Source: Acidicapsa acidisoli (lineage in GTDB: Bacteria; Acidobacteriota; Terriglobia; Terriglobales; Acidobacteriaceae). Taken from it: 64,000 nucleotides of DNA. Below are positions 34,054 through 62,651 of the stretch, piece by piece; the stretch's first letter is position 1; each line of letters starts with the position of its first letter. The stretch covers positions 868,001-932,000 of the forward strand of contig NZ_JAGSYI010000001.1 of assembly GCF_025685625.1 (NCBI RefSeq). Reading direction: 5' to 3'. The position numbers were made by a program, and so were the translations under genes. The notes beneath the pieces are model-generated. The model made no database searches, was not told where the DNA came from, and worked only from the letters and a program-made list of their open reading frames with translations.

Positions 34054-35397
34054 TTAATCCGCCGCCGTCTCCTGCAGACGCCGCCGGCTTTGGCTCCATG
34101 CTGTGAGCCAGTAGAGAACCGGACCAACCAGCGCGACCAGAAAAGCAAACAGCAACGCGGAGAAGCTGCCCACTCGTTCGTCGCGCGAGGCGTAGAGCGC
34201 GTAGCCGATCAGCGCCGTCGGACCCAGCCCCAGAGCGCAGGCAACGGCAAAGTTGCCGGCTTTGAAAGGCCGCTCCAGATTGGGCTCGCGCAGCCGCAGC
34301 ACGACCAGAGCCACGAATTCCAGGATCAGGCTCGCGCCATACAGCACCAGGTCGATCGAAATCAATCGCTCAAACGGCAGGTTGAGCGCCAGTGCCCAAG
34401 CAAGGGCGCAAAGCACCACAGAGACGTAGGGCACTCCGCGGCTGTTGCGCCGGGTCACGAATCTGGGCAGCATTCCATCCTCTGCCATGGCGACGGGCAG
34501 ACGGGTGTAGCTCATCATGAGCACGTTGAACATGCCGAAGCCGTTGATGGCTCCCCCGGCGACGACCGCTGTCGCCAGCACTGGTCCGCCGATCATGCGC
34601 GCCGCGTCTGCCCACGACCCGGTCGAGAAGTTCGCCACCGAAATACCCATCAGAGCGACCGCCGCCAGCGGCAGGATATACGTGACCGCCACCAGCAGCG
34701 CTGCAGAAACCATCGCAAGTGGGTAATTGCGCTGTGGGTTTTCCACCTCCTGCGCCACAGTGGAGGCGTTGTCCCACCCCATGTAGTTCCACATGGCGAC
34801 CAGTATGGCTGTGGAGAGCGAAGCCTCGGTGGACGCTGCGTGCCACTGGATCGCAGGATGAGCTGTAAAGCCATGCCAGAAGCCAAGTGCGATGAAAACC
34901 GCGAACGGAGCCAGCAGGAGCACGAAAAGCCCTACCGTGCCCTCGCCAACAGCCGGAGCGCCGCGCAGGTTCCACGCGCAGCAGACGACGACCACCAGCA
35001 GCGACCAAAGATAGGCGCGCGGGCCTTCCGTCAGATTGGGATTGAACCGGGCCAGATAACTGACAAAAATCGTCGGGTAAATGGCCATGTCGAAGACGCT
35101 TGCCGCAAGTGAGAGCCATCCCTCCTGGTAACCCCAAAAGGAGCCAAGCGCACGCCGGACCCAGACGTAAAAGCCGCCCTCCGCTGGAATCGAGCTGGCC
35201 AGTTCGCCGATCATGAGCGTAGTCGGTAAGCTCCACAGGAATGGCAGCAGGACGAGAATCAAAATCGCTTTGGCGAAGCCGGCGCCACCCAGAATGTCTT
35301 CAATCCCATACGGTCCGCCCGAGACCATGAAATAGGTCGCCGCGATCAGCGGGATAATACGAAGCTTCCGCCGGACGGGTTTGAGGGCAAAGCGCAT
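34054..35397 (-). CDS. APC-superfamily amino acid/amine permease
   Basis: A 447-residue inner-membrane transporter with about 12 helices. The first helix has the APC motif SGGPYGIEDILGGAG, followed by IGELASSIPAEGGFYVWVRR, typical of amino acid-polyamine-organocation permeases. MWNYMGWDNASTVAQEVENP in helix 6 is another strong APC signature. The substrate is not readable. The frame is open to 35562, but ATG 35395-35397 begins the basic, family-like N-terminus. Monocistronic. Confidence 0.9.
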   Translation of the reverse strand: MRFALKPVRRKLRIIPLIAATYFMVSGGPYGIEDILGGAGFAKAILILVLLPFLWSLPTTLMIGELASSIPAEGGFYVWVRRALGSFWGYQEGWLSLAASVFDMAIYPTIFVSYLARFNPNLTEGPRAYLWSLLVVVVCCAWNLRGAPAVGEGTVGLFVLLLAPFAVFIALGFWHGFTAHPAIQWHAASTEASLSTAILVAMWNYMGWDNASTVAQEVENPQRNYPLAMVSAALLVAVTYILPLAAVALMGISVANFSTGSWADAARMIGGPVLATAVVAGGAINGFGMFNVLMMSYTRLPVAMAEDGMLPRFVTRRNSRGVPYVSVVLCALAWALALNLPFERLISIDLVLYGASLILEFVALVVLRLREPNLERPFKAGNFAVACALGLGPTALIGYALYASRDERVGSFSALLFAFLVALVGPVLYWLTAWSQSRRRLQETAAD

Positions 35398-35678
35398 GAA
35401 TGTGAATGTAACAACCAAATGCCCTCTGCCAAAGGAAAAAATCGACCCTGCCGCTTTTTCAATTGGGAGGATCGTTCTGCCTCTCAAATGATGCCGGAAG
35501 CGGCGACTGGCGTGCCTGGAAGCAGGTTTTCCATCGGCCATTTGCGCCGCTGGATTGACCATCTTTAGAGGAATTCAGGCTGCCGGTTTCGAACTGCGAA
35601 TACGATGCCGGTCGGTGCAGGCGGTGCCTTCAACCTGTCGAGATGGTGTCTGCACGGCAGAGATGGCCAGGCTTCGGG

Positions 35679-35694: not shown

Positions 35695-35787
35695 GGAGAG
35701 ATGGCCGAGTGGCTGAAGGCGGCGGTTTGCTAAACCGTTGTAGGGTCAAAAGCTCTACCGGGGGTTCGAATCCCCCTCTCTCCGCCA
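35695..35787 (+). tRNA. tRNA-Ser (GCT)
   Basis: Acceptor arms GGAGAGA (35695-35701) and TCTCTCC (35777-35783) pair perfectly; discriminator G and an encoded CCA follow. The anticodon loop TTGCTAA gives anticodon GCT (serine AGC/AGU). A long variable arm (TAGGGTCAAAAGCTCTA) and the T-loop TTCGAAT are class II features. Length is 93 nt. Bases 35726-35780 recur as a direct repeat at 47711-47766, which makes this tRNA the probable attachment site of the island to its right. Confidence 0.97.
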
Positions 35788-36065
35788 GAACTATACATAA
35801 GATCAATTTATTCAATCACTTACATTATGCCTAATCCATCGCTGGCTCCTCGGGAATCTGCTCTTTGTACCTCTCGAGTTGCACATTTGTTGCATATGCG
35901 AGCCAAGGTAGCAATTCCATCCTCATAAGAGGTGAACGTTTTGAGCTTGAATACCTGACCCTAGCCGACTTCCCGGTAGTGACCTAGATCGGTTGATTTG
36001 CGCTGGAGCAGAGCCACAGAACCGTTCGATCCAGCTGACTGCGAAATCCACAGGAGGAATCAGAA

Positions 36066-36545
36066 GTGATCAAGAACGTGGCTGCATTGCTTAAAGCTTT
36101 CCAGGAAAGAGAGATCGAAGCGATCCAGCGCTCTGGTATCAGTCATGCTCCTACTATCGGGGCGCAATATGAAGGGATGACCGGCTCAGTCCTCAAGATG
36201 ATGATCCCTCAAGAACTGGAACTTCAGGTTGTTTCGGGCTTTGTCGAAGGCGTGGATGGCACGCTCAGCGGTCAGATTGACGGAATGCTTGTTCGGGGCT
36301 CCGGCACTCCGATTCCAGGGATTCAATAGCAGTATAAATGGCCGATCAAAGATGTCCTTGCAGTCCTGGAAGTCAAGAAAACATTATTCGGAAGCGATCT
36401 GTCGGACGCGCACGACCAGCTCCAAAGCGTGATGGCACTCTTTTGGGAATATGCAAAGCTTATTAAGCCCTCCGACGGTATTGATATAAGCGCACCTCGG
36501 TACGTCTACTCCCAGATCTTAGGCGAGCCCGCGCCGGTAGCGTGA
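36066..36545 (+). pseudogene. DUF6602-like gene interrupted by an amber codon
   Basis: GTG at 36066 has AGGAGG 8 bases upstream. The frame encodes 87 residues to TAG 36327-36329, then continues in the same frame for 71 more to TGA 36543-36545. The two parts join sensibly: TLSGQIDGMLVRGSGTPIPG before the stop and WPIKDVLAVLEVKKTL after. A Q-x-D followed by E-V-K-K recalls the nuclease-like DUF6602 family, some members of which sit in mobile regions. The second part also looks truncated at the C-terminus. Family assignment is tentative. The stop suggests decay, unless it is read through or is a sequencing error. Confidence 0.6.
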
Positions 36546-36940
36546 GAGCGATTTTCACACTTGGCTCGACTAACTCCGCGGATGGGCTGAGACCGGACTT
36601 TACGGTTGAATCGCATCTTTGTCGATACCTGCCCGGAGATGTCCAAGCTCCAACCCACTCCGAGCGGTTTTAGCGTTGCATATTCGAGTGCGGAACCTAT
36701 CCGCAGCGCTGCCGTGTCTCGCATACGCAACCCCGGCGCGCCGCAAAGCAACTTCTCAACCCTGAGTTTCTAAAAATGTCCCCTTTCCTCGTTTCCGTCC
36801 GCCTTAACTGATAGGAAGCGCTGCCCATCCGCTAAAGCACCGATCCGAAACACGGCAGTTCGATTGAATCTCCTGATTTCATGGGTCTATTAAGACCAGG
36901 TATCGGGTCACTGAAAGCAGTAGGTCATAAGGAGGACGCA
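36546..36940. other. Gene-poor stretch in the island
   Basis: 395 bp between the interrupted gene and the first small exported protein. Frames here lack ribosome sites and family features. It may contain remnants of earlier genes and the promoter of the gene at 36941. Confidence 0.4.
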
Positions 36941-37261
36941 ATGAGCCGTTTGACAGCAATGGCACTCTTCTCCGCACTCACTCTCAACTTGGCTACCGCC
37001 GACGCCCAGCAAATGAAGACGATTGTTACGTATACGTCCGGCTACGGCTCCGCTACCGAGACCGATCGAGACTTGGCAATCTCTGAGGCAACCCAAACAG
37101 CGCAGAATTGGGCGAACTCAGCCTGTCTGGGTATGGTCACGGATAGCAACGCCTCATCCTCAGCGTGCTCCAAGCTAAGCACCGATGACGACGGCAGCAT
37201 CATATGGTTCTGCAGCGTTACGGTGAAGGATCGTTGCGAGACAGAATTCCGCGGGAGGTGA
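36941..37261 (+). CDS. Small exported Cys-containing protein
   Basis: A 106-residue protein with a perfect AAGGAGG ribosome site. The signal peptide is MSRLTAMALFSALTLNLATA with cleavage near ADA. The mature part is rich in Thr, Ser and Asp and has four cysteines (ACLG, ACSK, FCSV, RCET), enough for two disulfides in the periplasm. No family recognised. A short hairpin (GCGGGAG/CTCCCGC) straddles the stop codon. First of two consecutive small exported genes upstream of the sigma/kinase pair. Confidence 0.72.
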   Translation: MSRLTAMALFSALTLNLATADAQQMKTIVTYTSGYGSATETDRDLAISEATQTAQNWANSACLGMVTDSNASSSACSKLSTDDDGSIIWFCSVTVKDRCETEFRGR

Positions 37262-37444
37262 TCTCTCCCGCAGATCCGTCTCCAGCCGGAAGCTGATGAT
37301 AACTCACGGGCAGCATTCGCCGAAGGTGGCATTGTAGTCGTGCTGACTTCAACCTTGATCTGATTCGACACATTGATAACGGGGATGCTCACAGCTTTGA
37401 CTTATCAACAAGCCCAAACCTTCGTGTAAAAGGAGGAAAAAGAA

Positions 37445-37804
37445 ATGCGAAACCATCTTGGAAGATTGATCGCACTGCTCATATTGGTGGTTCCTCTGGC
37501 TATATCAGCTCAGCAGCAGAGCCCATGGACCGATACAGGTATTAATGGGCTCTCCATCCGATTCGACCAAGTAACCCCCACGAGGTGTGCGTGGGAGTTT
37601 CGAAACGATAGTATTCGAACTCTTGCGGTGTTCAACTTCCGCATTGAGGACTTCAACGCTGAAACGCGTGTACCCGAACACTCGGTCAGTCTGATTCCAA
37701 CTCCCTTAAATTCCGGGCAAGAATTTGGAGGAGCATCAGCGTTCTCAGCTAATGCCAGCTGCAGATCGGTAAAACTCATAGTCACGAACATTCAATGGAA
37801 GTAA
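37445..37804 (+). CDS. Small exported protein
   Basis: A 119-residue protein with AGGAGG 8 bases before ATG and a clear signal peptide (LIALLILVVPLAISAQ). The mature part appears beta-rich (ISIRFDQVTPTRCAWEFRND, AVFNFRIEDFN) and has two cysteines. Unknown family. A strong hairpin follows the stop and probably ends the transcript before the ECF sigma gene. Confidence 0.72.
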   Translation: MRNHLGRLIALLILVVPLAISAQQQSPWTDTGINGLSIRFDQVTPTRCAWEFRNDSIRTLAVFNFRIEDFNAETRVPEHSVSLIPTPLNSGQEFGGASAFSANASCRSVKLIVTNIQWK

Positions 37805-37811
37805 GATCCTT

Positions 37812-37841
37812 CCGGGGATGCGGACATTTCTGCATCCCCGG
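37812..37841 (+). terminator. Hairpin after the small exported protein gene
   Basis: Perfect 10-bp GC-rich arms CCGGGGATGC / GCATCCCCGG with a 10-base loop, 8 bases after the stop at 37804. No T-run follows, so termination is inferred from stem strength and position. Confidence 0.55.
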
Positions 37842-38010
37842 CAAACAAGTTATTGTCAATTTGGCTGACATCCTGAGAGGACGGCCAGCAACACCCGGGA
37901 TAGAGAGCGGGCATCTAGTTGTGAAAGTTACCGAGCGACTATGCCGCCCACAAACCAGCGACTACGCTGATAAGTCGTGTTATACTCGCGGGCACACCGG
38001 AGCGTCATGC

Positions 38011-38601
38011 ATGAAGCCTCTCAAACCCGACTCGGGTGACGGGAACTCCATTACTGCTCTGCTACAGCAACTCAGCGAAGGGAACAGAGAAGTAGAGGCG
38101 GCCCTAATCCCTCAAATCTACCCGGAACTACGGCAACTGGCGGCCCGCTATATGCGACACGAGCGCCGGAATCACACATTGCAGCCTACAGCGCTCGTCC
38201 ACGAGGCTTATGAAAGACTCGTCCAGCAACCGCAGATTCCATGGCAGAATCGTGCGCATTTTTATGCATCTGCCTCTCAACTCATGCGCCATATCCTCGT
38301 AGATCATGCCCGCACCCGCCAAGCTGCTAAGCGAGGGGGTATTCAACATCAAGTAACACTGGACGAAGCACTTCTTCCGGAGGCTGGCCAATCCGCAGAC
38401 ATACTCGCCGTACACGAAGCACTTGAACGCTTAGCCAGGTTCGACGCCAGGCAATCACGGATCGTGGAGATGCATTTCTTTGGTGGATTGACATTTGAGG
38501 AGATGGCGTCGGTCCTGGGAGTGTCAGACCGCACAGTAAAACGAGATTGGAGCATGGCGCGAGCATGGCTGAAGGGAGAACTAACATCGAAGCAACTATG
38601 A
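38011..38601 (+). CDS. PF07638-type ECF sigma factor coupled to a Ser/Thr kinase
   Basis: A 196-residue sigma factor of the subgroup common in acidobacteria and planctomycetes. Its signature is IYPELRQLAARYMRHERR, LQPTALVHEAYERLV and FYASASQLMRHILVDHARTR, then region 4 HFFGGLTFEEMASVLGVSDR. The usual acidic core-binding patch of region 2.2 is replaced by PTALVHEA, as in kinase-activated ECF43-type factors such as EcfP, where phosphorylation supplies the charge. Its stop overlaps the kinase ATG (ATGA), so the two are translationally coupled. The inference is that it is switched on by that kinase. The frame is open from 37795, but ATG 38011 gives the family start. Confidence 0.88.
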   Translation: MKPLKPDSGDGNSITALLQQLSEGNREVEAALIPQIYPELRQLAARYMRHERRNHTLQPTALVHEAYERLVQQPQIPWQNRAHFYASASQLMRHILVDHARTRQAAKRGGIQHQVTLDEALLPEAGQSADILAVHEALERLARFDARQSRIVEMHFFGGLTFEEMASVLGVSDRTVKRDWSMARAWLKGELTSKQL

Positions 38602-41378
38602 CTCCCGAACTTTGGCAACGGCTAAAACCGCTATATGAGGCTGCCCTCGATTTGCCAAAGGAACAGCGCGCCCAATATGTCTCAGACGTCTGCAAAGACG
38701 ACGTGTGCTTGAAAGATGAGTTAGAGAAGCTGCTGAAATCTACGACTGAGCGAACACTTCCGCTCGACAATCCACTAATTCAATTTGGCAAGATATTCCG
38801 TGAGGGTCAGCGGACGCTTTCTGACGGGCAAGTGCTCCTAAATCGATTCCGGATTGTGAGGCATCTAGGATCGGGTGGCATGGGAGAGGTTTACGAGGCT
38901 GAAGACCTCTTCCTGCGGGGTGTTCACATTGCACTTAAAACGATTCATCCGGACATATCCGGCGATCCCATGATGCAGAAGCGCCTGGAGCGGGAGGTCC
39001 TGCTTGCGCAAGAAGTGACGCATCCGAATCTCTGTCCAATCCATACAATCTTTCACTGCGACGATCCGCCGCCTGCTTATTCGTTTCTGACCATGAAGCT
39101 GTTGCCCGGGCAGACACTGGCCGCACGATTGCAAGAGTCTTCCCAAATAACTAATGAGGACGGACTCTCAATTCTCCGCCAGATGTCTCTGGGAATTGGC
39201 GCTATCCACGCCGCAGGCATAGTCCATCGGGATATCAAAACGAACAATATCATGGTTGTCGGAAGCGGCCCCGGCCTGCATCTGTGGATCACCGATTTTG
39301 GCTTGGCGCGCGCCTACGAAACTGAATCGACCGCCTTGACGGTAGGAGCAGTAGGGGGAACACCCGGATACATCGCCCCGGAGCTGTTTCTTATGGACCC
39401 ACCGTCCCAGGCCAGCGATCTTTTTGCTCTTGGCGTCGTCCTCCACGAGGTTTTTGCCGGAGAAAAGCCAAGGCCCGTTCCCGGCACGCATTCCTATACG
39501 ATCAGCCCTCGGTTGACGGCCCCGAAAGTACCGTCACTTTGCGTTCACCTTATAACCGAGTGCCTCCAGGATGCCCCGCAGCGAAGATGCACCGCCTTTG
39601 CGGATGCTTTAGAAACTTTCGATTCCAAACTCGATCGCAGCCACTACATAGGTCGATCAGGACAATTCTGGACCCGACGTCGCTTTGCAGCCACCGCGGC
39701 GGTTGGCGTTTGTGCCGTTGCCGGAGGCACCTGGTGGAAATGGGATGAACTCGATAATGTGCTCCACCCGTTACCTCCGAAGCGCTTTGTCGCCCTTCTA
39801 AATTGGCCCAAGACCTCTGATTCCCGACTCACGCCGATGCTGACTGGGGCGCTTAGTGCGATCAAAAGCGAACTCTCGCGCCTTGAGGCGTTTGATCGGG
39901 ACCTGTTAGTGATTACGCCTGAGGATGCGGGTACTGAGTTGATGCAAATGGATCACCTCAAAGACATCTGCGATTCATTAGGTGCAAACCTCGTCTTGGC
40001 GGCCTCGGTCCAGCCAACTCCGAGATACTTCAAAGTGCTTTTCAGGTTGCTAGATCCTGTATCCGAGCGCTTACTGCGCGAACGAACGCTAGAGACTTCT
40101 ATTGCGGCGATAACCTCATTGCCACAGAAGGCAGTTAAGGCTGCGTCGGATTTGCTGAACTTACGTCATCCTTTTGCCAACAATTCCGTATCTAATGAAC
40201 CAGGCACGGAGTCCGCTGCAGCGTTCAGCGCCTTTCAGGCAGGCGAAGATTTGATGAAGCAGCCGAATGATGCCGGTCTGAATCCTGCCATCGATAAGTA
40301 CAAACTTGCCGTCGAGCAAGACGTGCACTTCGCCAAAGGCTATGCGAAGCTGGCCCTCGCATATTGCCGCCTCGCCACTCTGCGACACGATTCCGGCGCT
40401 CTCGAATTAGCCCGGGGAAATTCTAGGCTTGCCTTGGGACTCGACACGAATCTGGTAGACGGCCATATGGCCATGGCGTCCGTCTATGAGCAAAGTGGCG
40501 ATATGCCTTCCGCCTTGCAGGAGATATCCAGGGCCTTGGCTATTGATCCCTCTAACCCTGTCACTCTAGTGTGGCAGGCCCAAATTTACACCCGCCTCAA
40601 CCGTTGGGCTGAAGCCGAAGCCACCTATCAAAGGATATTGAACCAACGGCCTAACTTCTGGCTCGCCTATAACGAATGGGGCGTAGTCTTGAATGACCAG
40701 GGCAAATATTCCGAAGCGATTCAGAAATTCCAGGCAGCCTCCATTGCTGCTCCCCGTAACTCACTCGCCTTCAATAACGTCGGTTCGATCTATCTTCAGA
40801 CGGGGCACTACCCCGAAGCCATTGACAATTTCACGAAAAGCCTTATGCTAAAGCCCAATGCTTTAGCTGCGTCTAACATCTCCGCTGCTTTGCGTACCGA
40901 GGGAAAACCCGCCGATGCGCTTCCATTTGCTTTAAAGGCCGTCGAACTGGATTCCGCGGACGATAACAACTGGCTAGAACTGGCGGACTGCTATGCTTCG
41001 CTTCCCGGAAAACAACGTGCCGCCAAGGAAGCTTACCTGAAGGCGGCGATAACTGCAGAGCGACGCCTGCAGATCGATGCGTCGGACGGGGCCTCCTGGA
41101 TGCAACTCGCTCTGTACAAGGCCAAATCGGGCGCCCCCCAGATCTCGCTCTCGTTGATCAAGAAGGCTGAATCACTTGGAGCAGGGGACATTGACTCACA
41201 GCTTTGCAAGGCCAGGGTCTTGGAACTGTTGGGTTATCGAGACGAAGCGCTCGAGACACTGAGAGCTTGCCTATTAAAGGGGGCAACCGATTTTCAGATC
41301 TCCTCTGTCTCTGATCTGCGAACCCTCGCGCGCGACCCGCGCTACCGCAAACTCCTTCATACCAATCCAGCAACCTAG
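38598..41378 (+). CDS. Transmembrane Ser/Thr protein kinase with C-terminal TPRs
   Basis: A 926-residue kinase of the Hanks type. An N-terminal helical segment (1-80) precedes the kinase domain (about 85-345): glycine loop GSGGMGEVY (91-99), Lys114 in ALKTIHP, HRDIKTNN (210-217), DFG (233-235) and GTPGYIAPE (to 262). One membrane helix follows (about 362-381). The C-terminal half has an alpha/beta segment and then TPR-like repeats (about 555-870), for example DGHMAMASVYEQSGDMPSAL. The catalytic residues are complete, so it should be active. The TPRs lie beyond the membrane helix, probably periplasmic, and could sense a protein or envelope ligand. ATG 38598 overlaps the ECF sigma stop. Confidence 0.92.
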   Translation: MTPELWQRLKPLYEAALDLPKEQRAQYVSDVCKDDVCLKDELEKLLKSTTERTLPLDNPLIQFGKIFREGQRTLSDGQVLLNRFRIVRHLGSGGMGEVYEAEDLFLRGVHIALKTIHPDISGDPMMQKRLEREVLLAQEVTHPNLCPIHTIFHCDDPPPAYSFLTMKLLPGQTLAARLQESSQITNEDGLSILRQMSLGIGAIHAAGIVHRDIKTNNIMVVGSGPGLHLWITDFGLARAYETESTALTVGAVGGTPGYIAPELFLMDPPSQASDLFALGVVLHEVFAGEKPRPVPGTHSYTISPRLTAPKVPSLCVHLITECLQDAPQRRCTAFADALETFDSKLDRSHYIGRSGQFWTRRRFAATAAVGVCAVAGGTWWKWDELDNVLHPLPPKRFVALLNWPKTSDSRLTPMLTGALSAIKSELSRLEAFDRDLLVITPEDAGTELMQMDHLKDICDSLGANLVLAASVQPTPRYFKVLFRLLDPVSERLLRERTLETSIAAITSLPQKAVKAASDLLNLRHPFANNSVSNEPGTESAAAFSAFQAGEDLMKQPNDAGLNPAIDKYKLAVEQDVHFAKGYAKLALAYCRLATLRHDSGALELARGNSRLALGLDTNLVDGHMAMASVYEQSGDMPSALQEISRALAIDPSNPVTLVWQAQIYTRLNRWAEAEATYQRILNQRPNFWLAYNEWGVVLNDQGKYSEAIQKFQAASIAAPRNSLAFNNVGSIYLQTGHYPEAIDNFTKSLMLKPNALAASNISAALRTEGKPADALPFALKAVELDSADDNNWLELADCYASLPGKQRAAKEAYLKAAITAERRLQIDASDGASWMQLALYKAKSGAPQISLSLIKKAESLGAGDIDSQLCKARVLELLGYRDEALETLRACLLKGATDFQISSVSDLRTLARDPRYRKLLHTNPAT

Positions 41379-41419
41379 AAGGACCAATCCGCACCTAGTC
41401 GCTGAAAGGAAATCGACCC

Positions 41420-42175
41420 TTGAAAATGACAAAGTTCTCCCTCATTGCCATTTGTCTGCTCTTTCTGCTGTTGCCGAGCGGCTGCAAAAAGGTCCGAGTC
41501 GTAACGTGGGTTGCACCTAGCTTACCTGTGGAGAGCTATGCCGATGCCGGAACCACTCTGGAATGGGACCCGGTCGCGGGTCAGGGCTTCGAGATTAAGT
41601 TCACGCCAACGACTATCAGTCCATGTAAAGGCAATGAACCCTTAACCAGCGATGGTAAAAAACCGGTCGTGTGCCATTTGAAGAAGAATCGAGCCGGGTT
41701 TTATCAATACACCATTGTCATTTCTAACACCGTTGCTCCCACTGGCACTGTACCAAGTGGAGCGCCAGGCGTGTTTGCGCAACGAGTCGGACCGTGCAAA
41801 TACTGTTCCAACCCAAGTGGTTTCGAATTCGTTTCGGCCAACACAAGCGGCTTGGCCACGCGTGGTGCCCAATCAATTGAGTTAGATGAGTGCAGTACCC
41901 CCAGCCAGACGGCGACCGCGCAGCCCCCATCCCTATCCGCTCCCGCTGGAACCAAGGTTTACTGGACATATGCAGGAGATGATCCGCCTGATGGCACATC
42001 TCCTATTAGCGTCGTTCTTCCAGCAGGGGTTTGCTCGAATTCAGGTACACCGACCACAATCACGAACCCCTACACCGCATGTACTCTAACGACGCCATCG
42101 TCGAATCCTTACACGTACCAGATCTCTGTGTACAACTGCACGAACCCAGGCTCGGCCTCCTTGACTGTGCAGTAG
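41420..42175 (+). CDS. Exported, possibly lipid-anchored, Cys-rich protein
   Basis: A 251-residue protein starting at TTG, with AAAGGA upstream; ATG 41426 is an alternative. The hydrophobic N-terminus ends in LLLPSGC, a near-lipobox. The mature part is Thr/Ser/Pro-rich with many cysteines (PCKG, VCHL, PCKYCSN, DECS, VCSN, ACTL, NCTN), suggesting disulfides. No family recognised. It follows the kinase gene by 41 bases and may be in the same transcript, making it a candidate partner for the kinase's outer TPR domain. That is inference only. Confidence 0.72.
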   Translation: MKMTKFSLIAICLLFLLLPSGCKKVRVVTWVAPSLPVESYADAGTTLEWDPVAGQGFEIKFTPTTISPCKGNEPLTSDGKKPVVCHLKKNRAGFYQYTIVISNTVAPTGTVPSGAPGVFAQRVGPCKYCSNPSGFEFVSANTSGLATRGAQSIELDECSTPSQTATAQPPSLSAPAGTKVYWTYAGDDPPDGTSPISVVLPAGVCSNSGTPTTITNPYTACTLTTPSSNPYTYQISVYNCTNPGSASLTVQ

Positions 42176-42332
42176 CAGTTGGCACGTGTAACGTGGCCGA
42201 TCCTATTGGATCGCCGGACTCTGCTGAACGCAGGAACGCTGCAATCTTGTGCAATCAGAAAAGGTACTCGTAACTGCACTGTTTGAGCGGTCCGAGATAG
42301 TCAGAGATACCTTCACATGTCAGTCCGTTAGA

Positions 42333-42365
42333 AATAGACCCGGAGACGATTTCTCCGGGTCTATT
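42333..42365. terminator. Bidirectional hairpin between convergent genes
   Basis: Perfect 14-bp arms AATAGACCCGGAGA (42333-42346) and TCTCCGGGTCTATT (42352-42365) with a 5-base loop lie between the genes ending at 42175 and 42395. Short A/T-rich ends on both sides fit termination in both directions. Confidence 0.75.
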
Positions 42366-42394
42366 GATTTCAAGCACAGTCTAACATTAAAGAC

Positions 42395-42823
42395 CTATTT
42401 GAGCGCGATCAACGTGTCGCTGTTAGGGTTGAGACCTGCGTCCAGGTGATGTTCCATGGCTCTCTTCTCCGCTTTCGATGCTGGGAAGCTCAGCTTTCTC
42501 GAAGCACTCGGATAGCGAATCTCACGCAGGAAGTACTGGTCGCCATACTTGTGAAACAAGAGGCTGCCAGTGTTGGCCGGTTCGTTTGAATTGACTAGGC
42601 CCATGGCCCACATATCGACATTCCCCTGCCGGCTTCTAATGCTGAGCAAGTTAGGACGCTCAATGTTTGTGCCAATCGTGTAGATCCCAGCAGGCAGAGA
42701 GCTGCCGTTGACGGTGAAGTTGAATGGAACGGTTGCTCGCACGAGATGGTCTTGTGCGAGTGCGCAACCAGTGGCGATGAGGGTGACGGCGACGAAGTTG
42801 ACAATTGCGACGATGGGTTTCAT
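42395..42823 (-). CDS. Small exported protein of a VPFNFTVNGSSLPAGxY type
   Basis: A 142-residue exported protein: signal peptide MKPIVAIVNFVAVTLIATGC, then HLVRATVPFNFTVNGSSLPA, YTIGTNIERPNLLSIRS, LLFHKYGDQYFLREIRYP and a basic segment SKAEKRAMEH. I associate this layout with small secreted proteins common in acidobacteria whose function is unknown. AAGGAGA lies 6 bases before ATG. Two stable hairpins (42841-42893) lie in its 5' leader. Confidence 0.78.
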   Translation of the reverse strand: MKPIVAIVNFVAVTLIATGCALAQDHLVRATVPFNFTVNGSSLPAGIYTIGTNIERPNLLSIRSRQGNVDMWAMGLVNSNEPANTGSLLFHKYGDQYFLREIRYPSASRKLSFPASKAEKRAMEHHLDAGLNPNSDTLIALK

Positions 42824-43158
42824 GACTATCTCCTTTTCCAGGAACCTTCTTCAGGTTCCTCCTGGGGCTCCAGAACACTTTCTCTTCTGGAGCTTGTTAC
42901 TACGCATGGAGATATTGCATGCATGTGGCCAAAGATGAGCGCGCACGCGGTGTTTTCGTGATTTAACTGAGCACGTTTAATATCAATGAGATAGAGGGTA
43001 CTTACAGTTTTCTGTTCAGCGAATTCCTGCTGCGCCCCTTCCAACGGTATCCGAACAGATACCAGCCAGTATCTTGTCGGTTCTGTCAGGGCATCGTTCC
43101 TCGATTTATCTATGTTTCTTTTTCGATTACGTTACACTCGAATGCACCGGAGGCTCTG
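42824..43158. other. Divergent control region with structured leader
   Basis: 335 bp between the leftward small exported gene and the rightward FHA-sigma54 activator. It must contain both promoters. The part next to the leftward gene folds into two hairpins; no other gene is seen. Confidence 0.5.
42841..42893 (-). promoter_or_regulatory. Two hairpins in the 5' leader of the 42395-42823 gene
   Basis: GCTCCAGAA/TTCTGGAGC (42867-42875 with 42885-42893) and GGAACCT/AGGTTCC (42841-42847 with 42853-42859) are perfect stems immediately upstream of the AAGGAGA ribosome site. They could stabilise the mRNA or control its translation. Confidence 0.55.
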
Positions 43159-45009
43159 ATGCAGCCGCGGCTCCTCGTCATTTCGGGTTCGTTGACAGGA
43201 ACGGTTCGACCGCTAATCGACGGACATATTACGATCGCCCTCGACGAGTCGAATCAGTTATGCCTGATCGACTCCGATGTCTCGCGCAGACATTGCACGA
43301 TCGAGCAGGTGGCCGATCAATATGTGATTGTCGATCGCGAGAGTCCGTGCGGAACTTTTGTAAATGGAATTCCCGTAAGTCGAAAAGGTCTTGCACACGG
43401 TGATGCGATCCGAATCGGAAGATCTGAACTGGTGTTTCTGCTACACGAAGGGGAAGATACCGAAACGTCTCAAATACGCCTTAGTGACATTGCTTCCGCT
43501 CCATCTCTCCAGACAATTCGATTGGAAGACCGAACAGCGCCGACCTTCGCGGATCGAGTTGGATGGATGGCACGAGACCTGACAGCATTGTTGAGGATCA
43601 GCAATATCATCAATTCCATTCGAGATTTTGGACTCCTTCAGCTAGAGCTTCTGCGGCTAATCTGCGAAGTGATTCCCGCAGACCAGGGCGCCGTAGTGCT
43701 GCTCACTGATCTCAATGGGGAGCCCCATTCGATCATTACCTGGGACCGGCAACCTGATGCGAAGGAGTTGATCGAGATCCAGCGCGAGTTGGTTCACCGG
43801 GCAATCTGGGAACGATCGGCCGTCTTCACGGGCGCGTCAACGGGCGCTGGAGAGGCACACAGCGTTCTCTGCATGCCGCTCTGCGCCGTGGAAAAGACAA
43901 TCGGCGTTATCTATCTCACTTCGCCTCACCCGGATTCGCCTTTTCGTGAGGATCACATACATTTTCTTGACTCGGTCTCACGCATCGCAGCGGTCACTCT
44001 GGAAAACATACTTGCCCTTGATGCATTGCGTTCCGAGAACCTGCAATTGAAGGCGGAACTAAACCCAACCTGCCGACTCGTAGGCGAGAGCCAGCAAATT
44101 CACCAGGTTGAAGAATTCATCTCTCGAGTTGCACATAGTGATTCCACGGTGCTGATCCGTGGAGAGAGCGGAACGGGCAAAGAGGTTGTAGCTCGCGCGA
44201 TCCATCAAAACAGCCCTCGATCCGATCGGCCTTTCATCGCCATCAATTGCGCCGCAATTCCGGAGACACTGTTCGAAAGTGAACTATTCGGATATGAGAA
44301 AGGCGCCTTCACCGGAGCGACCGGGATGCGGAAGGGTAGGTTGGAGGCGGCCGGCGAGGGAACTCTCTTCCTTGATGAGATTGGGGAATTGCCCCCGCCA
44401 ATGCAGGCGAAATTGTTGCGCGTCCTGCAGCAACGGGAATTCGAGCGAGTTGGCGGAACTCTATCCGTCCCATTCAAGGCACGGGTTCTCGCCGCCACGC
44501 ATAAGAATCTTGAGCAAGCAATCAAGTCCGGCGAGTTTCGACAGGATCTGTACTACCGCCTCAACGTAGTCTCGATTCGCGTGCCGCCTCTGCGTGAGCA
44601 TCGCGAGGACATTCCTCTGCTTGCCTTATATTTCGCGACAAAGTACGCAATAAAAAGTAAGCGACCGTTCAAAGGTATTTCCCGGGCAGCGCGGATGCTC
44701 CTGATAAGTTATAGCTGGCCCGGAAATGTGCGCGAATTGGAGAACGCAATCGAGCACGCGATCGTGCTTGGCCTGACCGAGGAGATCCTTCCGGAAGATC
44801 TTCCCAATGGCCTGCTCGAGGAACAAGCCGGGGGGCTCCCAGTATCGCGATACCACGAAGCGCTCAACGAGACAAAAAAGGAGTTGATTCGCAGCTCGCT
44901 GGGAGAAGCAAAGGGAAGTATTCCCGAGGCCGCGCGACTGCTCGGTATTCATCCCAAGTATTTGCATCGACTTGTCCGGAATCTCAATCTCAAGTCGGAG
45001 CTTTACTGA
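43159..45009 (+). CDS. FHA-GAF-AAA+ sigma54-dependent activator
   Basis: A 616-residue bacterial enhancer-binding protein. The FHA domain (about 22-95, with [14 protein letters not shown] and [11 protein letters not shown]) binds phosphothreonine. A GAF-like domain follows (about 140-290). The AAA+ domain has Walker A GESGTGKE (335-342), the sigma54-contact loop GAFTGA (382-387) and Walker [11 protein letters not shown] (401-410). A Fis-type HTH is C-terminal ([20 protein letters not shown]). It should activate RpoN promoters in response to phosphorylation of itself or a partner. GGAGG lies 6 bases before ATG. It converges with the FHA-phosphatase gene. Confidence 0.94.
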
Positions 45010-45156
45010 TCATGTGTTTTCTCGAATTTGAGTCGGGACCGCTCGTATCGCCACTTTCGGACCAGAACGTCGATCTATATCGATAAGCCGTCAATTCTTG
45101 GGTTCACCGCGATAGGAATATTGAGCTATACACAGGAACGCTGGAAGATCTGTCTC

Positions 45157-46785
45157 TCATTCATTGCCGTTGTAACGAACCTCCACTAGAGTGCAGTCAT
45201 CCTGGGCAGGGTTAGGAGCCTGGAATTTAGCCACCTGGTCGAGAATCTCCCCGATGTTGGGACAGTGGGTCACTACACTGAGCCATGACTCTTCAAACTG
45301 CCGACCTTTGCTATTTTCAGCTTCTGTGATTCCATCGCTTGCGATTACCAAACGTTCGCCAGGCAGAAGCACGGTTTTGGCTGAAGCGTAGATTGCTTCT
45401 GCGAACAGTCCAACCATCAAATTGCTGTCTTCCAAACGCCGGATCTGTTTGCCGCGAATTACGAGCGGCAATATGTGCCCGCAGTTAATGTATTCCAACT
45501 GGCCATCTGGATAGAGCTTAACGATCACCATCGTCGCGTACTTACCGATGTTTCGCTCGCAGAGGAAGCGATTTACCGCCGTGGCTATGTCGGATAAGTC
45601 TTGCCGCGCCGCTAACTGCGCATGGACAATACCTTGCAGGGTCGCCGCAACAATGGCTGCTGAAATCCCCTTGCCGGATACATCCACCAGAGTCACACAA
45701 ACGCAGTCATCCAGGACCACAGCGTCGTAGAAATCGCCGCCGATCGCAAGGCAGGGGACGGTTTTCGCTTGAAGCGACGCATAAGGGAGCACGGGCAAAG
45801 CGATGGACATTAATCCACTGTGTATCCTGGCGGCTACAGCAAGCTCTTCTCTGGCTTGCCGAGCCTTCTGTTCGGCCTCGACCAGCAACGCGTTCTGCAG
45901 GAGAGCTGCTGCCTCAGCAGATACGGTGTCGAGAATCAGGTGATCAATCTCGCTAAGATCGCCCGGGGCGATCCGGCTGTCCAGGTATAACAGTCCGAGC
46001 AACTTGTCAGGCTCTTTCGGTGCGACCCGTTTCCGCAAGGGAACGCAGTGAATTCTGCGAATGTCATTCATCATGACGCTCGACCAACCCATTACCCTCT
46101 CATCGGTAGATGTATCGCTTACCGAGAACTTCCGCCGGCTATTGATCGCGTTCTCAATTGCTTTTTGTGAGATGCTCTGATCCTGCGCCAGCACTTCACC
46201 GGCGGAGTCGAGACCTTTCGCAAAATGCAGCTTTCTGTCTGCCCAAAGAAAGACGAATCCCCGCTCTGCCCCGGTCAATTGCAGTGTCAGATGCAATAAT
46301 GCGCCCAGAATTTCGTCGATAACTTCGCCCTCATTCAACTGACGGGCCGCGCGAAGCAGCCAGTTCAGTAATTCGATCTCGCGTGCCGCCGGAGGGATTC
46401 CAGCGAGGGTGTCGGGCATCTCCTGAATGGAGGACAGCAAGTCATGGAAAGAAGTCTGCTTCAATGGACCGGTTACCTGCTCGTCAGATTCAACGACAAA
46501 TCGCAATTTCTTGCCGGTGAGAGACCCGATTTGCAGCACATCGCCAGGCTTCAGAACCGCGTTTTGGATGCGGGCGCCATTGAGAAAGGTGCCGTGAGTA
46601 CTGTTTTCATCTGAGACCGTCCAATTATCGCCCTCACGCGTAATGACTGCATGATGACGTGAGACGAGGGTTTCGTGCAGGACCATGTCTCGATCCGGAG
46701 AGCGGCCAATCGACACGGACGCGCCATCCAGAACGAAGTTGTGCTGTCCGTCGGAGTCGGAATAACTGAGAAAGCTGGCAGGCAT
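45157..46785 (-). CDS. FHA-GAF-PP2C (SpoIIE-type) phosphatase
   Basis: A 542-residue cytoplasmic protein. The FHA domain (about 18-95) shows SIGRSPDRDMVLHETLVSRH and NSTHGTFLNGARI; the GAF domain (about 130-290) has GAERGFVFLWADRK and LLGLLYLDSRI. A coiled linker EAEQKARQAREELAVAARIH leads to the PPM/SpoIIE phosphatase domain (about 320-540). Its metal-binding motifs are GGDFYDAV, DVSGKGISAA, SDGITEAE and QDDCTLVEV. It probably removes Ser/Thr phosphates, or acts in a partner switch, within the island's signalling set. ATG 46783-46785 has AGGAAGGA upstream; the frame's GTG at 46803 lies before that site. Confidence 0.92.
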   Translation of the reverse strand: MPASFLSYSDSDGQHNFVLDGASVSIGRSPDRDMVLHETLVSRHHAVITREGDNWTVSDENSTHGTFLNGARIQNAVLKPGDVLQIGSLTGKKLRFVVESDEQVTGPLKQTSFHDLLSSIQEMPDTLAGIPPAAREIELLNWLLRAARQLNEGEVIDEILGALLHLTLQLTGAERGFVFLWADRKLHFAKGLDSAGEVLAQDQSISQKAIENAINSRRKFSVSDTSTDERVMGWSSVMMNDIRRIHCVPLRKRVAPKEPDKLLGLLYLDSRIAPGDLSEIDHLILDTVSAEAAALLQNALLVEAEQKARQAREELAVAARIHSGLMSIALPVLPYASLQAKTVPCLAIGGDFYDAVVLDDCVCVTLVDVSGKGISAAIVAATLQGIVHAQLAARQDLSDIATAVNRFLCERNIGKYATMVIVKLYPDGQLEYINCGHILPLVIRGKQIRRLEDSNLMVGLFAEAIYASAKTVLLPGERLVIASDGITEAENSKGRQFEESWLSVVTHCPNIGEILDQVAKFQAPNPAQDDCTLVEVRYNGNE

Positions 46786-46961
46786 CGTAAAATCCTTCCT
46801 CACTGACTGTACTCTTCACGACGATAGGACCGACTAGATTTATGTGACTCAATTTTGGCCAAAGCCATCAGGACGAAAGAGAGAGGCGACTGGCTGTCTG
46901 AAGCTTTGGAGGAAATGGTCCAACCGCACATTTGAACGGACGGAAACTCATCTGTCCGAAG

Positions 46962-46990
46962 GGGAAGCGCGTTCGGCGGCGCTTCCCTCT
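46962..46990 (+). terminator. Terminator-like hairpin without an assigned gene
   Basis: Perfect 9-bp arms GGGAAGCGC (46962-46970) and GCGCTTCCC (46979-46987) followed by TCTTTC. It lies between two leftward genes, yet the T-rich side is on the plus strand. The 175 bp to its left contain no credible gene. Confidence 0.5.
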
Positions 46991-47039
46991 TTCGAGAGAC
47001 ACAATCGGACTGATCTACGTGTCTAACCGAGAAGCCTGA

Positions 47040-47339
47040 TTAACAGGCCGCGGGGTAGCGGACGCCGTCTGTTCGAATTGCGATCGTTCCATACGCGGTC
47101 CTTACTATCCGACCAATCACAAACCAATTCCCAAATGCATTTACTCCCCAGATCTGGTAAGAGTAATCGACTTGGTAATCGACGCCGTTGACGTTGCACA
47201 CTGTCATCACGGGAACTGGCGGGACAGCATATTGAGCAGTCTGATAGTGTGCGGCAGGGGACGAAAGCGCCGGGGCGTCTCCGCTCGAGAATGGCCCGAC
47301 AACGGTGAACAGTGCCAATGCGATCATATTGTTGATCAT
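47040..47339 (-). CDS. Small exported protein near the island's right end
   Basis: A 99-residue protein with AAGGAGA 7 bases before ATG. A hydrophobic N-terminus (MINNMIALALFTVVGPFSSG) could be a signal peptide or anchor. The rest is Tyr/Val-rich with two cysteines (MTVCNVNGVDYQVDYSY and the C-terminal PAAC). Unknown family. It is the last gene before the tRNA-Ser remnant. Confidence 0.62.
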   Translation of the reverse strand: MINNMIALALFTVVGPFSSGDAPALSSPAAHYQTAQYAVPPVPVMTVCNVNGVDYQVDYSYQIWGVNAFGNWFVIGRIVRTAYGTIAIRTDGVRYPAAC

Positions 47340-48036
47340 GACGAATCTCCTTGGAATGAAGTGTCTCTGCGTTCGACTGCCTTCATTCCCTTAAGCGAAA
47401 ACTGGCGACAAATCGTGCAAAGCACCTAGCTTCAAGATGCGCTACCCCGTTAGCATCAGGGCTCCCATTCAGGCAGAATTGAAAATGAGTTTCTTGTGTT
47501 GACGGAAGCACGCCCAACCGGTTTGAGAGTGGGAAGACGGCTCCGAAAGTCGGTATTCAGTAGAACCCGGGCACCAGTTCCCGAAGAGATCGAGCAGTTG
47601 CATGTTCCGTTGCACATTCGAGTGCCGAACTGCCTTATTTCATCCGAATACAGCCATTTCACATGATGCTAAGTTGTTGATTCCGCACGAGAAGGCACAT
47701 GCGCGATAGATTTGCTAAACCGTTATAGGGTCAAAAGCTCTATCGGGGGGTTCGAATCCCCCTCTCATCTAGTCTGAAATCTATAACTTAAAAGATTCAA
47801 GCTCGCTAATTTCTGCAGATTTCCCCGTAAATTCGCAGATTCTGCCCCGCTAGAGAATTCTCTCCTCTCACTCGACTCCAACTCACATTCCTGCTGATTT
47901 TCTACCGGCGTTTTAACTAGTCGCTTTTCGATGCGAAGTTCGGCGATCGGAGTGCGGCTTCTTCGGGAATGGCAAATTGGATCTGCACATTCCCTCAGGG
48001 AAGCGTGATTGATATTCGTCGATTTGTTCCAGATGC
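47340..48036. other. Gene-free junction region containing the tRNA remnant
   Basis: About 700 bp between the last island gene and the GH20 gene. It contains the partial tRNA-Ser copy at 47711-47766. Short frames, for instance 47456-47662 on either strand, lack ribosome sites and family features and may be remains of island genes. Confidence 0.5.
47711..47766 (+). repeat. Partial tRNA-Ser copy (putative att site)
   Basis: It repeats bases 35726-35780 of the tRNA-Ser gene from the anticodon loop through the variable and T arms, in direct orientation. There are two substitutions (G to A, C to T) and one extra G in the run before TTCGAAT. The similarity ends at CCTCTC, before the acceptor end. 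It cannot make a functional tRNA, because the 5' half is absent. Confidence 0.85.
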
Positions 48037-50190
48037 CTAATTCACTGTTGGGACTGGAATACCCAACTCGGCAGGCGAAGGCAGCTTGTGATGTTCCCGC
48101 CATTCATCCCGGGCTAACTTGAAACGGTCGCTTCGTGATACCCAGAGTTGAGTTGCCATGTCATAGCGGAGCAGAACATTCTGCAACCAGTATGGGCGGT
48201 TTTCGCGCAGCCAAAGCTGCGAATATTGCAGGCGCGTGTAGCTGTAACCGTCGCGCATGTCTTCGCAGAGTCCGTTGACTCCTGTGATCGTTCCGAAGAT
48301 TCCGTAGGCGCGCTTTGCTACCTGCGGATCGGCCTGTCCGGAATATAGATGGTTATAGAGGTTCGCAATCGTATCGGCTGTTTCGAACTTCTGTGCGATG
48401 AAGTCAAAACGGCGCGCGCCCAACTCCAGTGCATCGATGGCGTCGCTCTCACGCAGAGGCCCCGCGGCTCGTGCCTGCGCGATCTGCGCAATGGCCTGCT
48501 CCGCATGAAGGCGCATCTCGTGAATGAGCGGCCGCAGTTGGACGGCGACTGCCTGCCCTTCGGCACTCCATGGGTCGAGCCAGAAAAGGGCATCGGTGGA
48601 CTCCCTTATCTTCGACTCGTCGAGCGCTTGGTAGATCGCGATCAGTTCGCGTTGCGCCTTGTCGAGATTGCCGGTCGTGTCTCCGTGAAAGATGCGTCCG
48701 TAAGAGTCTTGAAATTGCGCAACATCGCTGCTTCCGGATTGCCACCCCGCGGCGGCGCCGAACAACACGCCGTACCAGTCGGACAGAAAGAGACCTTCTC
48801 CATCGTCGTTCCAGATCGTATTCAACATGCCTGTGCTATGAGCCGCCTGGCCGTCGCGAACGAAACCCTGGATGTTGCCCAGTGCATAGTTATTGTCGGG
48901 GTAGACACGGCTCCAGTTATTCACTCCGGGCGCGACCCATGTCTCCATTCCGGCATCGACATATGGTTTCAGCCATGGTTCGAATCCCTTGGGCTCTGGA
49001 TGATATGTCCAAGCCACGGCAATCATGTCTTTGGGCAGGCGCTTCACTTCGGCAGGATCATTCATTGCGATGTCGCCCCAGAACAACAGTCGGCGGTGCA
49101 GCGGCGCGAGCGTGTCATGAACCTGGGAGAGAAAATCAATATACACCGCGCCTAACCCGCGCGCGTCCACGGCATCGTGTGTCTGCCCTTTGCCTAAGTC
49201 GGCGGTTTCGTCTGCACCGATATGCAGGAATGGCGAGGGAAACATTGCGGCAATTTCCTTGAACCATTGGCCAATCAATGCCGGGGAGCCGGGCTGGCCG
49301 GGAGCGAGGACATTTCCCATTGGAGTTTCCGCGAGCGGAGCATACTGCTCATACTTCAAGACGTGATGCAGATGCCCGAAGGCTTCCTGCTCGGGGACGA
49401 TGGTGACGTGATAGAGACGCGCGTAGTCGACGAGTTCGCGAACATCTTCGCGACTCATGCTTCCGCCCGGCAGCCCAGGAACGGGATTGGAGAGATACTG
49501 CAGAGTGTTCTCAAAGTATGCCGAGTAGAGATTGATCTTATAGGCTGCCAGGGTGCGTATCTGGCTCTTCTGAAAGTCCAGGGTCGGAACTGGACCACGC
49601 GATAGATCGTCTGATATTCCGCGATAACGCATCGCGGGCCAATCGCGAATCAGCGCCTTTTGCAATGTCGCCGAAGTACTGTTTCCGACGATCAACTGTT
49701 TGACCGTCTGCACGCCGTAGAAGATTCCGGACGAAGTGTCCGCAATAACGGCTAATCCGTTCCCGTTCGGAACAATCGCGTACCCTTCTTCATGCATTGG
49801 GCTATCGATTTTTGCGCCGGAGGCTGAGAGCAACTTCGCTGCCCGCTTCGAGTCCGACCGGAGCAATTCAATCACAGCCGAATGGCCATGCGCGTTCGAG
49901 ATGTTAAGTTGCTGAAGCCACGCAGAGAGATCCTGCGCGGCAAAACGATCTTCCGAATCAGATCCGCTCTTGATCGACACCCCATGAGTCAGTTCGATCA
50001 CGCCCTGAGAAGAATACTCACGAGGTATGGGCAAAAGCTTCGGCGCTTCGCCTGCGGTGACGGCTCTTGCGCTTCCCGCGGACGCTGCGATCGTCAAGGC
50101 AACTGCAATCAAACGGACAAAACCAGCTCGCGCTGAAATTGGGTTCCATACACGCTGTGAATTCACCTGTGCGACTCTCTGCTCTTTCAC
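48037..50190 (-). CDS. GH20-family beta-N-acetylhexosaminidase-like protein
   Basis: A 717-residue exported glycosidase. After the signal region (FVRLIAVALTIAASAGSARA) an N-terminal GH20b-like domain is followed by the catalytic barrel. The catalytic pair appears in HIGADETADLGKG (Asp-Glu), preceded by RYRGISDDLSRG and VPEQEAFGHLHH. The C-terminal 250 residues are helical. It would remove terminal N-acetylhexosamines from glycans. The start is probably GTG 50188-50190, 9 bases after GGAGG; the frame's TTG at 50208 lies before that site. Last gene of the leftward receptor locus. Confidence 0.87.
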   Translation of the reverse strand: MKEQRVAQVNSQRVWNPISARAGFVRLIAVALTIAASAGSARAVTAGEAPKLLPIPREYSSQGVIELTHGVSIKSGSDSEDRFAAQDLSAWLQQLNISNAHGHSAVIELLRSDSKRAAKLLSASGAKIDSPMHEEGYAIVPNGNGLAVIADTSSGIFYGVQTVKQLIVGNSTSATLQKALIRDWPAMRYRGISDDLSRGPVPTLDFQKSQIRTLAAYKINLYSAYFENTLQYLSNPVPGLPGGSMSREDVRELVDYARLYHVTIVPEQEAFGHLHHVLKYEQYAPLAETPMGNVLAPGQPGSPALIGQWFKEIAAMFPSPFLHIGADETADLGKGQTHDAVDARGLGAVYIDFLSQVHDTLAPLHRRLLFWGDIAMNDPAEVKRLPKDMIAVAWTYHPEPKGFEPWLKPYVDAGMETWVAPGVNNWSRVYPDNNYALGNIQGFVRDGQAAHSTGMLNTIWNDDGEGLFLSDWYGVLFGAAAGWQSGSSDVAQFQDSYGRIFHGDTTGNLDKAQRELIAIYQALDESKIRESTDALFWLDPWSAEGQAVAVQLRPLIHEMRLHAEQAIAQIAQARAAGPLRESDAIDALELGARRFDFIAQKFETADTIANLYNHLYSGQADPQVAKRAYGIFGTITGVNGLCEDMRDGYSYTRLQYSQLWLRENRPYWLQNVLLRYDMATQLWVSRSDRFKLARDEWREHHKLPSPAELGIPVPTVN

Positions 50191-50256
50191 CAGCAATTTC
50201 CTCCACAAAACACTCTGTTTATATTGGTCGAACTGACCGCTTGCCGTCTGATCTGC

Positions 50257-51522: not shown

Positions 51523-51576
51523 GGAACATTCTCCGGATGACGCAAGAGGTATGAGGGCTCAGACGGTACGAGCAGG

Positions 51577-52950: not shown

Positions 52951-52974
52951 TGACTACTCCTTTTAAATCGCAAA

Positions 52975-53030
52975 AAACTAGGCAGAAAAATTGCAAAGGC
53001 GATGTGGCCACATTGCGGCGGCCACATCGC
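52975..53030 (-). terminator. Hairpin between receptor and phosphodiesterase genes
   Basis: Perfect 11-bp arms GCGATGTGGCC (52999-53009) and GGCCACATCGC (53020-53030). On the minus strand the stem is followed by CTTTGCAATTTTTC. It may end most receptor transcripts and so set the receptor-to-enzyme ratio. Confidence 0.65.
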
Positions 53031-53041
53031 GCGATCGAACT

Positions 53042-58169: not shown

Positions 58170-58295
58170 ACGAGCATCTCGATCCCGATTCTAGTAGCCT
58201 GCACCGCGATTTTTTATGAAGACGGCGTGAACGTCAGCCGGACCGTATCCGCATGGAAGGCCTGATGCACCCTCGGATACGATCGCGGCTACGCA

Positions 58296-62267: not shown

Positions 62268-62276
62268 GGTAGTCCT

Positions 62277-62630: not shown

Positions 62631-62651
62631 CGGCGCCCTCACGGGCCGCCA

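Follow-up and report, generated by a model that had tools for sequence, protein, structure and literature searches.

The window analysed here, a stretch of 64,000 nucleotides from the 7.1-Mb genome of Acidicapsa acidisoli (18 contigs; the window is C1:868001-932000), contains about 12 kb of DNA lying between an intact tRNA-Ser(GCT) gene and a displaced copy of the 3' half of that same gene. This 12-kb island is very probably the integrase-less relic of an element that integrated site-specifically into the tRNA gene. An earlier note on the same DNA had proposed a site-specific integration whose integrase was either lost or supplied from elsewhere, and this proposal is now well supported by the repeat, by the alleles of the tRNA, by the use of the site as a hotspot and by a motif at the island ends. 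The three features on which the argument turns are the following.

35695..35787, plus strand: tRNA-Ser(GCT), intact, the target gene (ARAGORN, Rfam)
35726..35780, plus strand: repeated block from the anticodon loop to the acceptor arm, putative attL core (self-comparison, genome search)
47711..47766, plus strand: displaced tRNA-Ser 3' half, putative attR core, with the A-T allele described below (repeat match, allele comparison, alignment to the congener G004)

ARAGORN calls a single tRNA in the whole window, the tRNA-Ser(GCT) at 35695-35787 on the plus strand, in which Rfam concurs, and this is also the sole GCT gene found in the genome, so that its restoration after an insertion would matter to the cell. 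The two core copies are about 12.0 kb apart and in direct orientation, and the 3' end of the intact tRNA points into the island, as the earlier note had stated; its account of the copy, with two substitutions and one inserted G, proved exact to the base. The stretches 35726-35764 and 47711-47749 show 2 differences in 39 nt, and 35760-35780 and 47746-47766 share 21 identical nucleotides, the copy having one extra G. The repeat sets in one base ahead of the anticodon loop and ends 3 bp short of the discriminator base (the match ends at 35780, the discriminator is 35784); when aligned to the tRNA of G004 (compared genomes are designated by such handles), the fragment shows a 6-nt deletion at its acceptor end. 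In a search of the whole genome with the tRNA the fragment ranks second (E 1.6e-17), and the other three matches are the tRNA-Ser genes with anticodons GGA, TGA and CGA, a comparison that rules out an origin from another isoacceptor. A chance repeat was also discarded, given that dinucleotide shuffles of the window yielded 0 matches to the 39-nt block. In a 144-kb stretch no fragment of this tRNA was detected besides 47711-47766, and none lies between 47.8 and 71.5 kb; neither repeat nor alignment comparison revealed any DNA copied from upstream of the anticodon loop beside the fragment.

The two substitutions occupy opposite sides of the variable-arm stem and turn a G-C pair into an A-T pair, which is a compensatory change. 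The A-T allele is that of the intact tRNA in 8 of the 12 congeners examined (G003, G004, G006, G007, G008, G009, G010 and G013), and the G-C allele of A. acidisoli is found in G001, G002, G011 and G012. A compensatory change, in a form that eight congeners keep intact, marks the fragment as what is, judged by its sequence, a displaced real allele of tRNA-Ser(GCT). When the fragment is compared with the intact tRNAs of G006, G010 and G022, one of 56 aligned columns differs, namely the inserted G. The likeness to G004 runs past the tRNA to position 47793, with 85.6% identity over 90 columns (fragment and outer flank against tRNA and 3' flank). As a separate observation, the G-C and A-T alleles have an interleaved distribution in the genus, as though exchanges of the 3' half had recurred.

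In a Campbell-type integration, the 3' half that comes to lie beside the promoter is the one brought by the element, and the original half ends up displaced at the far end. Along these lines, a tyrosine recombinase would have driven site-specific recombination of the element into the single tRNA-Ser(GCT) gene, with a presumed crossover in the anticodon loop. The 3' half that completes the working gene today would be a copy carried in by the element, and the original 3' half of the host, with the A-T allele of the variable arm, would have been pushed 12 kb downstream. The present tRNA would be a chimera, its 5' half coming from the host and its 3' half from the element, and the fragment would be the older host half. 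The integrase and any transfer genes would have been lost since then. A site-specific integration of this kind would account for the repeat, the allele displacement, the recurring break point, the hotspot and the motif, and it is the missing integrase and a broken cargo gene that suggest a relic. With its integrase gone, the DUF6602 gene nearest the tRNA broken and a small deletion in the fragment, the element is probably immobile, unless the integrase of another element acts in trans.

The composition of the island agrees with a foreign origin in one respect. Its GC content is 53.2%, against 57-58% in the adjacent blocks and 57.2% to its right, and none of 216 other 11.9-kb windows of the 144-kb stretch is as low, which bears out the earlier remark that the sequence looked more AT-rich. 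The absence of a visible integrase was also upheld: none of the 31 PF00589 matches of the genome falls at C1:904-916 kb, and 30 of the integrases of the genome, used as tblastn queries against the window, gave only noise, with a best E of 0.055 outside the island. The Pfam scan took in 10 island pieces, 47040-47339 not being among them, and the PHROGs scan took in nine, the ECF sigma factor gene not being among them. The only PHROGs matches were the kinase/TPR protein and the sigma54 activator, none of them structural, and a prophage was rejected for want of phage structural or packaging genes in those nine pieces. An integrative conjugative or mobilizable element was set aside as well, since no relaxase or conjugation genes occurred among the Pfam matches of the ten. 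No mobility gene being recognised, the mechanism rests on the scars.

Insertion at this tRNA can be followed in other genomes of the genus. Two further features define the surroundings of the island in the window.

34054..35562, minus strand: APC-family amino acid permease, the conserved left flank (Pfam AA_permease_2)
47791..64000: rest of the variable region in the window, with GH20, DUF218, phosphodiesterase, TonB receptor and other genes

The permease lies upstream of this tRNA in 11 of the 20 relatives examined, with other genes to the right of the tRNA. Island genes were not detected to the right of the tRNA in any of the 20 at 50% identity over half length, in compared stretches of 0.9 to 115 kb per relative (less than 6 kb in five of them, G006, G032, G026, G016 and G010, and at least 11 kb in the rest). 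Weaker matches to window proteins in these genomes are paralogues, one example being the 42% relative that the FHA-SpoIIE protein has in G033. Among themselves, the relatives share within 20 kb right of the tRNA an integrase stretch (61%, G007 and G008), two permease-like genes (G003 and G031) and weak paralogues. In G007, an open reading frame for a tyrosine integrase with an arm-binding domain starts 182 bp past the tRNA. The close relatives G002 and G011, whose permeases are 97% identical, provide a near-empty and an occupied site: the alignment resumes 133 bp past the tRNA in G002, and the same genes resume at +38912 in G011, where a 20-nt copy of the tRNA 3' end stands at +25531 with a tyrosine integrase just inside, so that G011 carries a 25.5-kb element absent from G002. 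Elements equipped with an integrase have thus inserted at this tRNA within the genus, and the site is a hotspot.

The same comparisons show how far the variable DNA extends. A. acidisoli and G001 are collinear only from +35.8 kb onwards in the former and +42.1 kb in the latter; in window numbering the A. acidisoli position is about 71.5 kb, past the end of the window. G004 enters the shared order later, at +55.0 kb there, opposite +51.1 kb here. The fragment at +12.0 kb is thus not the outer border of the variable DNA, and the 12 kb are the tRNA-proximal unit of a larger hotspot. Of the earlier idea of an island bounded by the tRNA and its remnant, the bracket is real and the outer border is not. 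The prediction that an empty site would join the tRNA straight to the GH20 locus was not borne out: such a site occurs in no relative, and the DNA beyond the fragment likewise lacks shared counterparts as far as +35.8 kb from the tRNA. In none of the relatives' stretches does the GH20 locus stand beside tRNA-Ser(GCT), and the best GH20 relatives lie elsewhere. In one of ten GH20-relative loci (L043, in G034), 168 bp separate a GH20 match from a tRNA-Ser(GGA), in the other orientation.

The 35.8-kb region is probably made of stacked elements; most simply, the element would have entered a site already used, in a series of insertions with the 12-kb unit as the latest. It could instead be that the 12 kb and the 24 kb to their right entered as one 36-kb element, the fragment being an internal relic of an earlier recombination. 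Neither part is matched at this locus in relatives at the thresholds used, and synteny with G001 begins only at +35.8 kb, as a single element would have it. The two parts differ in GC content, however, and the fragment, flanked by motif copies, marks a recombination end between them, so that we regard a single 36-kb element as unlikely.

Fragments of the same tRNA half also occur in other genera. From the matches listed, seven that cover only the 3' half were inspected, and no integrase was detected in the 2-4 kb around any of them. Two of the seven are tRNA-Ser(CGA) genes, and the other five (L467-L471) have no ARAGORN tRNA call. Those in G019, G020 (two) and G023 run from tRNA position 32 or 33 to 93, with the same start as the fragment in the window, and the one in G028 runs from position 42 to 93; in G019 and G020 the best tRNA match is on another contig. 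All four genomes carry the 3'-half fragment without an adjacent intact tRNA and lack the island kinase, and we read these fragments as scars of other elements at the same target. Two outcomes had been named in advance as refuting the insertion. One, conservation of the 12 kb in place across the family, is not seen in the relatives; the other, a remnant without the island genes, does not occur in the stretches right of the tRNA of the 20 relatives, though the four genomes of other genera do hold such 3' halves without the kinase.

These fragments bear as well on the proposal that the copy arose by segmental duplication or ectopic recombination, with the 12 kb as merely intervening DNA. An absent integrase would suit such an event, as would the family-level homologues that some island genes have away from tRNA genes. 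A duplication would nevertheless have to begin at the anticodon loop, where fragments in three further genomes of the family also begin, to yield a different functional allele, to copy no DNA upstream of the loop and to fall on a site used by other elements, and we consider it hardly credible.

The last line of evidence for a site-specific integration is a short motif found at both ends of the island.

35810..35823, plus strand: ATTCAATCACTTAC, att-associated motif, whose strict part at 35812-35823 starts 24 bp past the tRNA (pattern scan)
47670..47682, minus strand: loose motif copy, inverted, 28 bp inside the fragment (pattern scan)
47778..47790, plus strand: loose motif copy just outside the fragment, in flank alignable to the tRNA 3' flank of G004 (pattern scan, alignment)

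The strict 12-mer TCAAYNACTTAC has one copy in the window, against a shuffle mean of 0.03, and 13 places in the genome (L214-L226), against 7 for a backward control pattern, the surroundings being scored for the 13 only. Ten of the 13, the window's own included, have a tRNA or integrase match in their 3-kb locus; for an eleventh (L224) a tRNA-like 3' end was recognised by eye, and L216 and L217 have neither tRNA nor integrase. Seen from the integrases, the 12-mer stands in 6 of 30 integrase loci of the genome, at 5 distinct sites, and is absent from 80 kb of control sequence. Two of its copies (L220 and L221, at C3:124 kb) lie at a distance of 502 bp and have a single short integrase fragment (64% over 53 amino acids) in common, perhaps a decayed integration end. 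The looser form of the motif has three copies in the window, 35810 (+), 47670 (-) and 47778 (+), all at the island ends and against a shuffle mean of 0.05, but the pattern was composed after two of these sites (35810 and 47778) had been seen and 47670 is the only independent one. In 21 segments totalling 794 kb it occurs at three other places, directly after the tRNA in G004 and G006 and inside G011 at +17320. In 6 of 29 relatives, ACTTA or GCTTAC stands in the 90 bp that follow the tRNA, compared with 2.7% of random 90-bp stretches of the window.

On a broader scale, the family pattern TCTCTCCGCCA-gap-ACTTAC was found in 26 of 250 genomes; with a scrambled hexamer the count was 7 of 250, and the backward control occurred in 3 genomes. 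Among 20 of its 28 listed places that were inspected, 7 have a downstream integrase match, one of just 59 amino acids; 9 of the 20 are extended-motif places, 3 of them with an integrase, and 3 of these 9 stretches end within 500 bp. In viral contigs, among the matches listed, 120 loci with the TCAAT form of the motif have a full tRNA just ahead in 15 cases, a T-loop only in 11 more and an integrase within 1.5 kb in 13, as opposed to 0, 0 and 2 for 120 loci of the reversed-pattern control. A positive control, in G061, has the same motif beside a tRNA-Ser(TGA), an integrase, and a 20-nt copy of the tRNA 3' end 19.9 kb away (L181, L209). The motif thus appears as a widespread mark of tRNA integration sites, and it may be an integrase-binding site. 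A literature search for its exact 12-mers gave unrelated titles only.

With motif copies at both ends, the 12 kb might be conceived as a still mobilisable unit which, though devoid of an integrase, keeps both att sites and is moved by the integrases of other resident elements; the 31 PF00589 matches and the strict motif sites in integrase loci would offer candidates. Since the fragment has suffered a deletion and an inserted base, the cargo includes a broken gene and no integrase match of the genome lies at this tRNA, we hold this to be quite unlikely. A related idea, which we deem very unlikely, is that the island is a trans-mobilised passenger that never needed an integrase of its own, its ends carrying the motif of resident integrase-bearing elements at tRNA-Asn, tRNA-Gly and other sites. 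If this were true, repeated visits would exchange the 3' half of tRNA-Ser(GCT) again and again, and this would account for the interleaved compensatory alleles.

Besides the composition of the looser motif pattern after the fact, several observations weigh against the reading of the 12 kb as the relic of a site-specific integration. The deviation in dinucleotides is mild, with 7 of 216 windows deviating as much, and the low GC content is the clear part of the signal. In the island pieces scanned, neither Pfam nor PHROGs recognised an integrase, a relaxase, a replication gene or a gene for phage structure. Of the flank right of the fragment, compared with 20 relatives, 27 bp alone could be aligned, to G004, a short likeness which for the flank by itself was equalled by 4 of 300 shuffles (the score with G006 was equalled by 1 of 300). 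A permease tree of 10 genomes, from which G001 and G016 were left out, puts A. acidisoli (G000), G002 and G011, with the G-C allele, in an open fork with G004 and G006, with the A-T allele, and singles out no ancestral allele. The right flank of G002 and G011 differs from the one common to A. acidisoli, G001 and G004, and the pair therefore shows insertion at the tRNA and not this particular boundary; no relative has an empty site flanked by the exact right side, and the 12-kb unit is not seen both absent and present. The far end of the 36-kb region bears no further tRNA fragment, so stacking rests on unit structure and composition. Lastly, an inverted motif copy was sought at the far end of the positive control G061 and was not there, and the inverted far-end motif was dropped as a general rule.

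The relic of site-specific integration that we favour carries the following genes.

36066..36545, plus strand: DUF6602 gene with an in-frame stop, degraded cargo; both pieces match PF20247
36941..37261, plus strand: small protein of 106 amino acids, hydrophobic N-terminus, no family
37445..37804, plus strand: small protein of 119 amino acids, hydrophobic N-terminus, no family
38011..38601, plus strand: extracytoplasmic function (ECF) sigma factor (PF07638, E 4.4e-55 for the longer reading 37795-38601)
38598..41378, plus strand: Ser/Thr kinase with TPR repeats (Pfam Pkinase and TPR; longer reading 38547-41378)
41420..42175, plus strand: lipoprotein-like protein of 251 amino acids, no family
42395..42823, minus strand: 142-amino-acid protein, hydrophobic N-terminus, divergent to the FHA-sigma54 gene
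43159..45009, plus strand: FHA-GAF-sigma54 activator (Pfam)
45157..46803, minus strand: FHA-GAF-SpoIIE (PP2C-type) phosphatase (Pfam)
47040..47339, minus strand: small protein of 99 amino acids, no family in PHROGs or NCBIfam (Pfam was not among the libraries used)

The surviving cargo would be a phospho-signalling module, made of the ECF sigma factor and the Ser/Thr kinase, the FHA-sigma54 activator and the FHA-PP2C phosphatase; by the coordinates of the open reading frames, the stop codon of the sigma factor overlaps the start of the kinase. Its presence among genomes is patchy. The kinase occurs in 0 of 14 congeners (cut-offs of E<=1e-90 and E<=1e-100) and in 15 of 299 other genomes at E<=1e-100, with two candidates per genome scored, and the DUF6602 family in 3 of 61 genomes, A. 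acidisoli counted. The best E values of the activator in the 14 congeners range from 3e-92 to 1e-74, versus 1e-131 or better for full-length homologues elsewhere, and the six congeners listed align to it only from residue 284 on, which is the common AAA part. G033 has a 66% relative of activator residues 127-615, neighboured by a 34% relative of the 142-amino-acid protein. The genes for this protein and the activator adjoin in several other genera (L126, L128, L132 and L134) and form a recurring pair. Seven named homologues of one island protein are all from Acidobacteria, including Acidobacteriaceae, Granulicella and Terracidiphilus records.

Overall, the locus documents a tRNA-Ser integration hotspot with several independent scars: the allele displacement, the pair of near-empty and occupied sites, the recurring fragments and the att-associated motif. 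It indicates that integrase-less cargo beside a tRNA can be the relic of a site-specific integration, and that foreign DNA can extend past a tRNA fragment. The motif offers a practical lead to integration ends that have lost their integrase, and possibly a general means of finding integration ends. No published account of this locus was found in a literature search, which is no proof of absence. Eichorst et al. (PMC5900883) describe prophages and mobile elements as shaping acidobacterial genomes, and the term 'genomic island' is absent from the main text of that article.

By the wider features of genomic islands, the 12 kb are patchy, absent at the locus in close relatives and deviant in composition (GC clearly lower, dinucleotides mildly). 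The nearest counterparts are the elements of G011 (25.5 kb, GCT) and G061 (19.9 kb, TGA), which like the island have a tRNA-Ser as target and a copy of the tRNA 3' end at the far end. Unlike it, they keep a tyrosine integrase, and their copies measure 20 nt as compared with 56 nt in the island; the G011 element shares no island gene at the thresholds used. A further parallel is CGI48 at tRNA-Trp in Shewanella (PMC8978831), a composite island whose tRNA gene serves as a conserved locus of integration; there a component island was identified as such, and in the A. acidisoli region only the tRNA-proximal unit has a recognisable far end. The closest scheme is that of the tDNA islands of Islander (PMC4383910), which have an intact tDNA, a 3' fragment downstream in the same orientation and an anticodon-centred site, as here. 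According to that work, the attP of the element carries a tDNA fragment that restores the gene, and fragment damage ending 3 bp upstream of the discriminator is named as a recurrent form; the fragment of A. acidisoli ends in this very form, and its span of about 12.0 kb lies within the length range of 2-200 kb. The difference lies in the integrase, which Islander requires inside or overlapping the island and which is missing here, so that its filter would reject this case, and the 12 kb are best filed as an integrase-less relic island that would have worked like the known kind.

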